A stretch of 64,000 nt of DNA. It comes from Solobacterium sp. (GTDB lineage Bacteria; Bacillota_I; Bacilli_A; Erysipelotrichales; Erysipelotrichaceae). The stretch lies in NCBI GenBank assembly GCA_017404505.1, contig JAFRCE010000007.1, forward strand, positions 1 through 64,000. The letters are read 5' to 3'. The notes below the pieces were generated by a model. That model was given only the letters and a program-made list of their open reading frames with translations. It was not told where the DNA came from and did not search any database. Below are positions 55,922 to 63,114 of this stretch, piece by piece. The first letter of the stretch is position 1. Each line of letters starts with the position of its first letter. The translations under genes and the position numbers were made by a program.

Positions 55922-56692
55922 TTACTGCTGCAGGATTTCCCGGGACTCGGCGGAGTTGATCTCGACGATCTTCTGGAAGTATTCGTCCTGGGTCATATCG
56001 CCCTTTTCAAGAACCGTTTCGATATTGCCGTCCCGGATATACAGCAGGCGTGAGGAATAGGAAGTGATCAGCGGGTCATGGGTAACCATGACGATGGTAA
56101 CGCCGTTTTCTTTGTTCAGCTTCTGCAGGATCTTCATCAGTTCCGCCGAATTGGCACTGTCGAGGTTGCCGGTCGGTTCGTCGGCGACGATGATACGCGG
56201 ATTGTTGATCAGCGCCCGGCAGATGGCGGCACGCTGACGCTGGCCGCCCGAACACTCATTCGGGAATTTATCCAGCAGGGTCTCGATATCCATCTGTTTT
56301 GCCAGCTTCGTGATCCGCTCACGGATCTCATCGCGGTTGACATGGGCAAGCGACAGCGGCATGGCGATATTCTCATACATCGTATGGGAATCCAGCAGGT
56401 TGAAATCCTGGAAGATGAAACCCAGATTCTGATAGCGGAAGCGGCCGATCTCATTGGAACTCATGGAACGGACTTCCTTGCCGTTGATATACACTTTGCC
56501 GGCGGTCGGCAGATCGATCGTCGATATATTATTGATAAATGTTGATTTACCGGAGCCGCTCGGTCCCATGATGGCGACAAAATCCCCTTCTTCTACCTGA
56601 AAGGAAATGTTGTGCAGTGCTTCAAATGCGTTGGCGGTATTGAAATTGTAGACTTTCTTCAGATTTTTCGCTTCCAGTACGGTATCCGTCAT
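55922..56692 (-). CDS. ABC transporter ATP-binding protein (LolD/MacB/BceA type)
   Basis: A 256-residue ATPase. Walker A is GPSGSGKST, the signature SGGQRQRAA, Walker B IIVADEPTGNLD, with Q-loop FIFQDFNLL and H-loop VTHDP. The sequence group serves FtsX-type permeases, and the next gene is one. A C-terminal tail of about 30 residues extends past the usual end. No bceRS-type regulator is adjacent. Transcription starts from a poorly defined promoter in the divergent region facing the riboswitch. Confidence 0.94.
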   Translation of the reverse strand: MTDTVLEAKNLKKVYNFNTANAFEALHNISFQVEEGDFVAIMGPSGSGKSTFINNISTIDLPTAGKVYINGKEVRSMSSNEIGRFRYQNLGFIFQDFNLLDSHTMYENIAMPLSLAHVNRDEIRERITKLAKQMDIETLLDKFPNECSGGQRQRAAICRALINNPRIIVADEPTGNLDSANSAELMKILQKLNKENGVTIVMVTHDPLITSYSSRLLYIRDGNIETVLEKGDMTQDEYFQKIVEINSAESREILQQ

Positions 56693-58710: not shown

Positions 58711-59640
58711 ATGCCAGCTTTTGTAAGAATTATTATCTGGGCAGTTGTGATCATTCTGATCATTGCCATTGTGTTCTCCTGCGCCAGCGTTGTGCCGCAG
58801 GAAAACGCGTATGTCATCGAACGTTTCGGCCGCTACAAGACAACGTGGCATGCCGGCCTGCACTTCAAGATCCCTCTGGTTGAAAGGATCTCCCGCCGGG
58901 TTCTCTTAAAGGAACAGGTCGCGGACTTCGCACCGCAGCCGGTTATTACCAAGGACAACGTCACGATGCAGATCGACTCGGTCGTCTACTTCAAGGTCAT
59001 GAATCCGCATGACTACGCATACGGCGTGGAAAATCCGATCATGGCAATGGAAAACCTGACCGCGACGACCCTGCGTAACATCATCGGTGACATGACACTG
59101 GATGACACTCTGACATCCCGTGAAGTCATCAACTCACAGATGCTGCAGACGATCGACCTGGCTACCGACCCGTGGGGCATCAAGGTCACCCGTGTCGAGC
59201 TGAAGAACATTCAGCCGCCGGCGGCCATCCGGGAAGCCATGGAAAAGCAGATGAAAGCAGAACGTGAAAAGAGAGCTGCCATTCTTACCGCCGAAGGTGA
59301 GAAGCAGTCCATGATCCTGACAGCGGAAGGCCGCAAGGAATCCGCCGTTCTGGAAGCGGAAGCGCAGAAGCGGGCCACCATCCTGGCAGCCGAAGCAGCC
59401 AAGGAAAAGGAAATCCGTGAAGCGGAAGGCCGTGCCGAAGCGATCCGCACGGTTCATCAGGCAACCGCTGAAGGTCTTAAGGCCATCAAGGATGCCGGTG
59501 CTGATGAGGCGGTCATCAAGCTGAAGAGTCTCGAAGCATTTGAAGCAGCCGCCAACGGCCAGGCAACCAAGATCATCATCCCTTCTGAGATCCAGGGTCT
59601 TGCCGGTCTGGCGCAGGCTGTCAAAGAAAGCGCTAAATAA
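58711..59640 (+). CDS. SPFH/stomatin-family membrane protein (QmcA-like)
   Basis: A 309-residue protein with one N-terminal membrane helix (about 5-25) and an SPFH domain (about 27-190: VPQENAYVIERFGRYKTTWHAG, PQPVITKDNVTMQIDSVVYFKV). The coiled coil consists of 11-residue repeats such as MILTAEGRKES and TILAAEAAKEK (about 185-250). A glycine/alanine-poor C-terminus follows. SPFH proteins form large membrane-bound cages that organise proteases and lipids. No NfeD gene is adjacent; the small downstream gene takes that place. Its start has AGGAGAGG upstream. Confidence 0.93.
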   Translation: MPAFVRIIIWAVVIILIIAIVFSCASVVPQENAYVIERFGRYKTTWHAGLHFKIPLVERISRRVLLKEQVADFAPQPVITKDNVTMQIDSVVYFKVMNPHDYAYGVENPIMAMENLTATTLRNIIGDMTLDDTLTSREVINSQMLQTIDLATDPWGIKVTRVELKNIQPPAAIREAMEKQMKAEREKRAAILTAEGEKQSMILTAEGRKESAVLEAEAQKRATILAAEAAKEKEIREAEGRAEAIRTVHQATAEGLKAIKDAGADEAVIKLKSLEAFEAAANGQATKIIIPSEIQGLAGLAQAVKESAK

Positions 59641-59912
59641 TGCCCTTTCTGATCATACTCGTCGCCTGGGTCATCATTGTCGCGGCCATCGTCGTCGCCA
59701 GCGCGAGCCGCAATGTCAAATTCCGCCAACCGCCGCGGTCGGATGACGGACATCTCGTCCCGCCGCAGCAGGATCTGACATGTGAAACCCAGTACGGACA
59801 CCGACATGACGCTTCAAAGACCAAGCGCTATATCGTTCATGAAGACCCGCCGCAGGGCTATGTGGTCCTGAACGGCGTCAAGCGCAAGATCAGCGACTGC
59901 AAATATCTGTAG
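59640..59912 (+). CDS. Small single-pass membrane protein downstream of SPFH gene
   Basis: A 90-residue protein with a hydrophobic N-terminus (MPFLIILVAWVIIVAAIVV) and a soluble tail with histidines and aromatic residues (YGHRHDASKTKRYIVHEDPP and NGVKRKISDC). Its ATG shares a base with the SPFH stop (TAATG), so translation is coupled and it may be an SPFH partner. It is not NfeD. I do not recognise the family. His-rich segments could bind metal, which fits the manganese-type leader, but this is inference. Confidence 0.7.
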   Translation: MPFLIILVAWVIIVAAIVVASASRNVKFRQPPRSDDGHLVPPQQDLTCETQYGHRHDASKTKRYIVHEDPPQGYVVLNGVKRKISDCKYL

Positions 59913-59917
59913 ACAGT

Positions 59918-59950
59918 TAAAAACGTCATTCATACGAATGGCGTTTTTTC
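59918..59950 (+). terminator. Bidirectional terminator after the riboswitch operon
   Basis: An AAAACGTCATTC / GAATGGCGTTTT stem (59920-59931 and 59936-59947, one wobble) with T residues; it also ends the converging DUF1294 operon. Confidence 0.85.
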
Positions 59951-60230
59951 ATATTCCTTTCAACAACAGCCATACAAGCAACATCGTCCAGAGGATCACG
60001 CATGCAAGATTGATGATGCGGAAATACACATGTTTTGTTTTGTGGTGAAAGACACGCATGCCAAGATACGCCCCATAGGCTCCCCCGCATACGGCACTCA
60101 TCAGCAGCGCGTTTTCCGGGATCCGCCAGGCCTGTTTCTTCGCCTTGTATTTATCCGTGCCGTACATGACGAAGGCCGCGGCGTTCATGAAGACAAGATA
60201 TGCCACAAGCAGGCGCATCATCTCACTCAT
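59949..60230 (-). CDS. DUF1294 family small membrane protein
   Basis: A 93-residue protein with three hydrophobic segments. The family core is YGTDKYKAKKQAWRIPE, then GGAYGAYLGMRVFHHKTKH, both conserved in DUF1294. Function is unknown. ATG 60230 has an AGGAG site and overlaps the upstream gene by eight bases, making it the last gene of a three-gene unit with the two CydDC-like membrane proteins. Confidence 0.9.
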   Translation of the reverse strand: MSEMMRLLVAYLVFMNAAAFVMYGTDKYKAKKQAWRIPENALLMSAVCGGAYGAYLGMRVFHHKTKHVYFRIINLACVILWTMLLVWLLLKGI

Positions 60231-61053
60231 CTGTTTTCTCCTGAGTGCCGGATATTTCCTCGGCAGCATCCAGAACATCCATCAGGATGTCCGCCGCCCC
60301 GGTGAGTACCAGCAGCGGCTCAAACGAGCACATAAATGTCAGTACGGTGATGAGCGATCCCTCATAATTCAGTACACCCTGCCGGTACAGCAGAATTACG
60401 GCGATAACCAGCATGACAGAAAAGAGAACAGCAAGCAGTTCTGATGCGGCTTTACTGCGGGCACTCACTTCCCCTTCAATCAGTTCTGTCTGTTCATATT
60501 CATCGGTGTCTTCTTCAGTATTCTCTTCACTGTCGCGGCTTTCTTCCCGGACGCTGCGGCTGCGGGAGGCTGCCAGCATCGGCAGGACAGCACCGAGAAC
60601 CAGATAGCTTGATAAGGCAAGCAAGGCCGTCAGAAGATTATATCTGCCGATCAGAATCAGCGCCGCAATGGCATGCAGTACGGCCGCGCAGAACGGCGAG
60701 ACAGCCTCGTCAAAGAAACCTTTCAGCCGCAGAATATGACTGTCCCGTTTCCCGTCTGCCATGTTTTCCATATTCACACGCAGAATATCTTCCGTTCCCG
60801 ATCTGATTTCCATCGTATATTTCTGCCCGGCTTTTCTCAGTACCGGCAGACTGATGCAGCACAGCACTGCGGCAATGCAAAACGCTGTCAGGGACAGGTT
60901 TTTCCTGTGGCCGATGATCTGCAGAATGGCATAGCCCGCCAGCACCGGAATCATCAGTGAGAAAAGATGTTCCATAGCACTCAGAAGGACCTGGACTCTC
61001 ATCCTGCTTTCTAAAGGTTTACACATCTTCAGCAGTTTTCCCACGGTTTTCAT
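60223..61053 (-). CDS. CydC-like ABC transmembrane domain without ATPase domain
   Basis: A 276-residue protein that is only the membrane part of a CydC/CydD-type ABC exporter. It has about six hydrophobic segments, an acidic cytosolic loop (SRDSEENTEEDTDEYEQTE, about 175-195) and an end at the membrane/ATPase linker (MDVLDAAEEISGTQEKTDE). The features matching CydC are the final helix pattern (LITVLTFMCSFEPLLVL) and the linker. No Walker A, signature or Walker B is present, and none is found within the window nearby in a matching position. It may use an ATPase encoded elsewhere or have lost transport function. Confidence 0.68.
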   Translation of the reverse strand: MKTVGKLLKMCKPLESRMRVQVLLSAMEHLFSLMIPVLAGYAILQIIGHRKNLSLTAFCIAAVLCCISLPVLRKAGQKYTMEIRSGTEDILRVNMENMADGKRDSHILRLKGFFDEAVSPFCAAVLHAIAALILIGRYNLLTALLALSSYLVLGAVLPMLAASRSRSVREESRDSEENTEEDTDEYEQTELIEGEVSARSKAASELLAVLFSVMLVIAVILLYRQGVLNYEGSLITVLTFMCSFEPLLVLTGAADILMDVLDAAEEISGTQEKTDE

Positions 61054-61814
61054 CTTGCCTTTTCACCTCCTTCTTCCTTTTCCAGGAAGGTGAAGAAAGC
61101 ATCGCAGGCCTTCCTTCCCTCTTCCGCAGCCGGACGGCTTTTTTCCAGAAGCCGCAGCGGCCGAAGCAGTTCACCTGTCAGCATGATCACCATCAGACAC
61201 CCGTAGATATGAGCATTGTGATTCTTCAGTTCCAGAAGGCATACAACAATTCCCAGAGCCACGCATAAATATGCCGCACAAATCAGAACATCCCGGGTTT
61301 TCCGCGTCAGTTTCTCATTCGGAATCACCGCGATCAGATACAGACCGGCGGCTGCCGGCAGAAGGAGAGCAGCTTTCCAGCAGACAAAGCAGGCAGCGAC
61401 GGTTACTGTCACCGCTGCCAGCGGGGCATAATACAGCTGCGGCAGATATTCGCTGCAGTATTTTTCCATCCGCTCCGCGTTCTCCGTCGCTTTCTGCCGT
61501 TCCTCTTTCTCAGCGTCAGCTTTCAGGGAAAGTCTGCTGTGCAGTACTTCCCTGGTTTTCATGGCGGAAAGAAAACCGCAGCGGAACGATCCCCGCACAC
61601 AGAAATAGCGTACGAACATGGTGCCGGTCGCAGTCATGATGGCAAAGAATGCCAGAAAACCGCCGGAAAGACCGCTGTATAAGGCATCCAGAGTCAGGGC
61701 GGCTGCATAGATCACGGCAATTTCGGCCAGCAGGCCGCCCCATTGCACGAGCACGTTCAGCCGGATATATTTTTTTCCTTCGCCGTTCAGCGAATACAAT
61801 CGTTTCTCAAACAT
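61050..61814 (-). CDS. CydD-like ABC transmembrane domain without ATPase domain
   Basis: A 254-residue membrane protein. The start YIRLNVLVQWGGLLAEIAVIYAAALTL and the middle KTREVLHSRLSLK, then EKYCSEYLPQLYYAPLAAVTV, match CydD-type membrane domains. It ends with LLRPLRLLEKSRPAAEEG and FFTFLEKEEGG, exactly where a nucleotide-binding domain would begin. No ATPase motifs are present. It overlaps the second membrane protein by four bases (ATGA), the arrangement of a heterodimer. Full-length CydC/D proteins have about 550-580 residues; this one is less than half. Confidence 0.68.
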   Translation of the reverse strand: MFEKRLYSLNGEGKKYIRLNVLVQWGGLLAEIAVIYAAALTLDALYSGLSGGFLAFFAIMTATGTMFVRYFCVRGSFRCGFLSAMKTREVLHSRLSLKADAEKEERQKATENAERMEKYCSEYLPQLYYAPLAAVTVTVAACFVCWKAALLLPAAAGLYLIAVIPNEKLTRKTRDVLICAAYLCVALGIVVCLLELKNHNAHIYGCLMVIMLTGELLRPLRLLEKSRPAAEEGRKACDAFFTFLEKEEGGEKAR

Positions 61815-61877: not shown

Positions 61878-63092
61878 TCAGATGGCGAAATCGCCCTTGT
61901 CAAAGATGACCACTTCTTTTCCGTCTTCGGTCGTGCCGGTAATGTGCATGTCAGCGGTGCCGATCATGAAATCGATATGGATCACGGAATCGTTGAAGGT
62001 GTACTTCGGATCGGCCGGCTGTTTTCTGCTCAGACCGCGGCCCAGAGCGAGATGACAGGATGCGTTCTCGTCGATCAGTGTCGTGTAATAGACGCGGCCG
62101 CTCATGGAAATCGGCGAATGGTATTCCACCAGGGCGCATTCGCCGAGGTAGCCGGCGTTTTCGTCCATCTGAACAAGAGCCTCCAGCATTTCTTTGCCTT
62201 CTTTGGCAATGACTTCGACGACCTTTCCTTTTTCGAAACGGAAGCCGAAGTTTTCGATGCTTTTGCCGCCGAGCACCAGCGGCCGTGAGGCATAGACGAC
62301 ACCCTCGGTGCCGAACTTCTCCGGTGTCGTGCAGATCTCTTCGGTCGGAATATTGGCGTTATGCGGGATGTAGTTCGGCATGACGTCCTTCGGCTTGAAG
62401 CAGAATTTCGAATCCGGCGTCAGTTCCACGGTCAGATCCGTGCCGTTGGAAGCCATATAATGCAGTTTCGTGAAATGATAACTGTCGATCACTTCGCCTT
62501 TGGCCTGCTTGCGCTGATTCTTCTCTTCCCATGTCTTTACGACATCGTTTTCCTCGTCGATGTAGCAGAGCTTCAGAAGCAGCTTCCACAATTCATCGAA
62601 GCGTTCTTCTTCCGGGATGTCGCTCATGATCGTGTCCGCCCATTCTTTCGTCGGAATCATGGCGATCAGCCACTGGCAGTGCTTTTCCCGGGAGGCTTTG
62701 CGCATGATATTGCGGACTGCGTCGATGTGGGCGAATACGGCATTGGCCTGGGCTTCCGGAACGTCCGCCATCAGCGCCGGATTGACCCCTTCGAGACGGA
62801 CAAAGCAGGCGCCTTCGTCAAGATATTTCTGATTCTGCAGTACTTCCCAGTCTTCGACTTTGCGGACGTCCTCGTCGCTGCGGTATTTTGCGGCCACCTT
62901 CAAATTGGCTTCGTCCAGATAGTGAACGATGACGTTGGAAGCTCCGAGCTTATAGCATTCTTCCGCGAAGACGGGTGTGAAGTAGGCACCTTCCACACAC
63001 GCTTCGACGAGCACCGGCTGGCCTTTCTGCACGTTCAGTCCGACACGGGCCAGTGTATAGGCGTATTTTCTCTGCATTTCTTTCATGTTCAT
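61878..63092 (-). CDS. M29 family aminopeptidase (AmpS/PepS type)
   Basis: A 404-residue metalloaminopeptidase of the thermophilic aminopeptidase family. The conserved C-terminal half carries NIPTEEICTTPE and GYLGECALVEYHSPIS (metal-binding Glu residues), YYTTLIDENASCHLALGRG (His), and VIHIDFMIG (His and Asp). It removes N-terminal residues from peptides in the cytosol. ATG 63092 was chosen as the most plausible start; alternatives at 63104 and 63086 exist, and the GAGAGG site is at a longer distance. It follows the DUF2130 gene by 22 bases. Confidence 0.93.
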   Translation of the reverse strand: MNMKEMQRKYAYTLARVGLNVQKGQPVLVEACVEGAYFTPVFAEECYKLGASNVIVHYLDEANLKVAAKYRSDEDVRKVEDWEVLQNQKYLDEGACFVRLEGVNPALMADVPEAQANAVFAHIDAVRNIMRKASREKHCQWLIAMIPTKEWADTIMSDIPEEERFDELWKLLLKLCYIDEENDVVKTWEEKNQRKQAKGEVIDSYHFTKLHYMASNGTDLTVELTPDSKFCFKPKDVMPNYIPHNANIPTEEICTTPEKFGTEGVVYASRPLVLGGKSIENFGFRFEKGKVVEVIAKEGKEMLEALVQMDENAGYLGECALVEYHSPISMSGRVYYTTLIDENASCHLALGRGLSRKQPADPKYTFNDSVIHIDFMIGTADMHITGTTEDGKEVVIFDKGDFAI

Positions 63093-63114
63093 AACAATGC
63101 ACATCCTCTCTTTT

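Follow-up and report, generated by a model that had tools for sequence, protein, structure and literature searches.

Two adjacent genes in the 64,000-nucleotide stretch of the Solobacterium sp. contig JAFRCE010000007.1 that we analyzed (hereafter the window) encode the membrane halves of a CydDC-type exporter stripped of their ATPase domains. We estimate a probability of about 0.7 that this locus specifies a CydDC-derived, ATP-independent membrane complex, which has been kept by selection and has lost the ATPases, coupling loops and heme site. Both genes lie on the minus strand: the CydD-derived one (61050–61814) codes for a protein of 254 aa and the CydC-derived one (60223–61053) for a protein of 276 aa, with six membrane segments retained in each. 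They are clean open reading frames and, as proposed in an earlier reading of the letters alone (the sequence-only reading), they are adjacent, overlap and both end at the linker, with the nucleotide-binding domain being absent from either product. Their 4-nt ATGA overlap (61050–61053, minus strand), which the relatives' full-length operon shares, represents translational coupling. The gene for a small DUF1294 membrane protein (59949–60278, minus strand), whose domain identity is real (Pfam E 8e-25), overlaps the 3' end of the CydC-like gene; the conservation of its start in relatives suggests that it truly begins at about 60230 rather than at 60278. The locus is flanked by two syntenic markers, namely an aminopeptidase gene (61878–63104, minus strand), which we take to be of the M29 type, and a presumably SPFH/slipin-type gene (58711–59640, plus strand), the latter also serving as the marker for our genus survey and species tree. 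In the window as well as in several relatives, the SPFH gene is immediately followed by a gene (59640–59912 in the window) for a small membrane-anchored protein of 90 aa, in which a conserved CETxYGHxH stretch is a possible metal site.

The ancestry of the two halves was examined with public profiles and with profile-profile comparisons. The product of 61050–61814 is CydD-like in an NCBIfam scan (CydD, E 2e-9), and that of 60223–61053 is weakly CydC-like by public profiles (E 0.005). In hhalign comparisons against full-length proteins from the genus itself, the two match CydD with E 1.8e-56 and CydC with E about 4e-44 (4.2e-44), the matches spanning the whole membrane domain in both cases. The identity of the pair as CydD and CydC is unambiguous by this comparison, and at the level of sequence we could show that the split pair descends from CydDC. 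Pfam and NCBIfam scans up to E 10 returned no match of the window proteins to SbmA/BacA.

The sequence-only reading was right about the loss of the ATPase domains; it overlooked that the coupling loops and heme ligands have gone as well. The CydD-like protein is without ~62 aa of ICL2, which the aligned full-length proteins have at the place corresponding to its residues 172 to 176, and also without part of ICL1. The CydC-like protein is without comparable stretches, which make up most of the cytoplasmic loops. In type IV exporters, it is these cytoplasmic loops that dock the ATPase domains. The axial heme ligands of the Escherichia coli CydDC are H85 of CydC and H312 of CydD (PMC10374445). 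Both histidines are present in all full-length proteins compared and are lost in both split pairs identified in this study, with Pro/Gly at the CydD site and Met/Arg at the CydC site; in the window pair the replacements are Pro in the CydD-like protein and Met at the position of E. coli H85 in the CydC-like protein. Further, full-length CydDC is present in many species of the genus, and the cytochrome bd subunit I (PF01654) was found in none of its 70 species in a search with positive controls. Hence, the full-length CydDC of this genus must serve another purpose, and neither a CydDC annotation nor the presence of full-length CydDC in the genus can be used as evidence of cytochrome bd assembly.

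Two of these 70 species, the sister (G106) and a close relative (G017), possess full-length CydD and CydC genes and a DUF1294 gene at the same locus. A search of related genomes for the same pair of ATPase-less membrane domains recovered a second case, G011, which has it together with DUF1294, likewise at this locus; the M29-type gene is a neighbor of this G011 pair as it is of the full-length CydDC in both G106 and G017. Among 316 genomes of the order, nothing else matched the split form contiguously, and the split pair is known from these two species, the window species and G011. The sequence-only reading had regarded full-length homologs in close relatives as the mark of recent decay. They do occur; however, the window pair has diverged too far, and its open reading frames are too well preserved, for recent decay to be likely. 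Real decay is evidently seen in G013, in contrast to the window pair: its broken CydD (136 aa; L081, 7851–8261 and neighbors) has a stop inside the match and a CydC fragment adjacent to it. Short CydD-like open frames are also found elsewhere in the order (G091, G082, G234, G137 and others); most of these retain the loop region, and they may be frameshifts or contig ends.

In six further species (G038, G105, G104, G047, G052 and G014), the locus codes for a single chain of 383–456 aa, the first half of which matches CydD (hhalign E 1.6e-6) and the second CydC (E 1.9e-9); two unrelated membrane proteins used as controls gave far weaker values (E 0.012 and 0.1). In the SPFH tree, which served as the species tree and does not include G047, the other five form one fully supported clade, and no member of that clade lacks the fused form. 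In G052 a full-length CydDC is encoded elsewhere in the genome in addition to the fused chain. Named genomes searched directly with the window protein gave no match; the fused family, for its part, yielded named relatives, by which its carriers belong to the Erysipelotrichaceae. Several of the carriers are metagenome assemblies, and we read the record names as indicating a rumen or stool origin. Weak matches of the fused profile in another genus (G158, G162) look like cation-efflux proteins of the CDF type and were set aside as false positives. In G105 and G106, open reading frames resembling reverse transcriptases, which we take to be of the group II intron type, lie close to the locus (L115, 3184–4650; L118, from 9418).

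The DUF1294 gene, which the sequence-only reading had held to be coupled to the pair, does adjoin the ATPase-less protein in all eight species that have one. However, it is also found at the locus in species without a CydDC beside it, and the link is therefore an association and not proof of a shared function. A literature search returned six papers that mention DUF1294, in none of them as part of the title.

Several lines of evidence bear out the suggestion of the sequence-only reading that this is a selected form and not random decay, beginning with its presence in a second species and as a single chain in six more. In both gene trees the window and G011 pairs form one ATPase-less clade (100% bootstrap each). 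AU tests rejected independent truncation in the two species (p 8e-6 and 6e-4), also when confined to outer-half sites (p 0.001), a result to be read with caution as long branches may affect it. The genes flanking the window pair and its DUF1294 gene are, unlike the pair itself, closest to those of G106; hence, the ATPase-less form was either exchanged between species or sorted differently. As the two pairs are sisters, the pairwise dN/dS between them captures evolution after truncation: it is 0.35 and 0.41 for the two genes, significantly below 1 (2dlnL 27.7 and 17.0), with dS near saturation. The corresponding value among the full-length relatives is 0.08, and two pairs of fused proteins with dS not fully saturated gave 0.26 and 0.27. 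In neutral simulations at 0.5 substitutions per site, a mean of 7.5 and 7.1 stops per gene accumulated, and only 2 and 0 out of 1000 runs for the respective genes stayed free of stops. These codon-level comparisons show the split-pair proteins to be constrained, about four to five times less than the full-length proteins.

The remaining constraint is unevenly placed. With the membrane segments delimited by hand, on visual inspection of hydrophobic stretches, identity between the two split pairs drops from 65% in the outer half to 33% in the inner one (Fisher p 2e-11), whereas the full-length proteins of G106 and G017 show no such difference (outer 77%, inner 80%; p 0.43). Across the full-length proteins it is the inner half that is more conserved. 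In the fused family, the motifs with the strongest conservation lie in the equivalent outer segments. The signal lies in this contrast between the halves, the per-site correlation between full-length conservation and identity of the ATPase-less pairs being nil. This sequence pattern fits a working surface that faces outwards, or else an outer gate that stays closed and so joins the two halves; the need to keep the dimer intact would by itself lead one to expect it too.

Structural models, all of single chains and of moderate confidence, are consistent with the proposed ancestry. AlphaFold2 run on the fused protein of NK3D112 (six sequences) gave a helical bundle with about twelve membrane helices (pLDDT 69, pTM 0.68), which VIA-align superimposed on CydD (Z 19.8) and, over 422 residues, on the complete membrane region of ABCB1 (Z 24.3, rmsd 4.1). 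The fused protein is thus modeled as a complete 12-helix, two-wing membrane domain of the ABC-exporter kind. Modeled alone (pLDDT 60), the CydD-like window protein matched type IV exporter membrane domains with Z of about 15–17 over ~225 residues, with both CydD and CydC among them, as predicted were the fold of the CydDC type. As Foldseek searches against the PDB gave no E below 0.001 (best 0.0027), the evidence for the fold is that of VIA-align Z and coverage and of the sequence profiles.

The sequence-only reading left it open whether the membrane halves use an ATPase encoded elsewhere or form a complex not driven by ATP. The genome does have many ABC ATPases, several of them free-standing, and YddA relatives with membrane and ATPase domains in different genes are known (PMC13316013). 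However, an ATPase acting in trans is very unlikely here, because both halves have lost the cytoplasmic loops on which it would dock. A search of the window genome found no lone CydDC-type ATPase: no free-standing ATPase is nearer to that of CydD than ordinary paralogs, and the best matches have ~32% identity to it, which is typical of unrelated ABC ATPases, although in this fragmented assembly (27 contigs, ~91% complete) absence alone is not proof. Since the option in trans is not supported, the non-ATP-driven complex remains. A free-standing ABC ATPase at 55922–56692 of the window (29% identity to the CydD ATPase) adjoins a ~424 aa permease in relatives; it was rejected as a partner of the pair, being a separate system with that permease. 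We likewise consider it improbable that the pair is a decaying remnant of an operon that fell out of use, perhaps once heme export was no longer required, with the membrane halves now eroding slowly. Given that constraint is four to five times weaker than in the full-length proteins, slow functional erosion remains conceivable, and the broken CydD of G013 shows that decay does occur in the genus. Nevertheless, purifying selection acts on split pairs and fused chains, stops are missing where neutral drift predicts several, and the loss is orderly, comprising exactly the ATPase and coupling parts while the operon overlaps are kept. The retention of the fused form throughout its clade and the genus-wide absence of cytochrome bd, including in species with an intact full-length CydDC, also speak against such a remnant.

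A specific version of the ATP-independent complex would be a secondary transporter of the SbmA/BacA kind, in which an ion gradient drives alternating access and thereby the passage of some substrate. SbmA, a proton-driven relative of the ABC membrane domain thought to stem from a YddA-like ancestor, together with BacA provides the precedent for an ABC membrane domain living without its ATPase (PMC13316013), and the predicted two-wing architecture of the fused protein is in keeping with such a transporter. On the other hand, the inner half, which would contain the inner gate, is weakly constrained (33% identity), and the alignments reveal no acidic membrane residue obviously common to the split and fused forms. 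We therefore regard transport of this kind as possible but doubtful. With the inner half weakly constrained, we think a non-pumping role, as an outward-facing scaffold or receptor acting with DUF1294, somewhat more likely, the lean being slight. In the ATP-independent complex that we favor, the two subunits would remain joined at their outer halves, much like those of the parent exporter. The side facing outwards would be the working surface or an outer gate that stays shut, and heme would no longer be pumped with ATP.

What is known of how an ATP-driven transporter loses its dependence on ATP comes mainly from SbmA/BacA, where the event is an old one. In the present case, related species have a full pump, a split pair or a fused chain at a single locus, so that each step, and what it means for function, can be studied in parallel. 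On balance, we think that this locus represents a second, independent route by which an ABC exporter powered by ATP became a membrane machine that does without it, with several stages seen within one genus and possibly leading to a new outward-facing function with DUF1294.

In comparison with CydDC, a heterodimeric heme exporter of the type IV ABC class, the window pair shares its descent, gene order, gene overlap and the six-helix membrane domain of each half, and occupies the same genomic place as the full-length CydDC of the sister species. It differs in the absence of the ATPase domains, most of the cytoplasmic coupling loops and both axial heme ligands, in the shift of conservation to the outer half, and in belonging to a genus without cytochrome bd. 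With SbmA/BacA (the SLiPT family), it has in common a membrane domain of the ABC-exporter type that is kept as a protein without its ATPase. However, the parent was YddA-like in that family and CydDC here, and the identical protomers of SbmA/BacA are replaced by two different chains or one fused chain. Proton-coupled transport, established for SbmA, is no more than a possibility for the present locus. It is no member of that family by sequence, its closest relatives being CydD and CydC.
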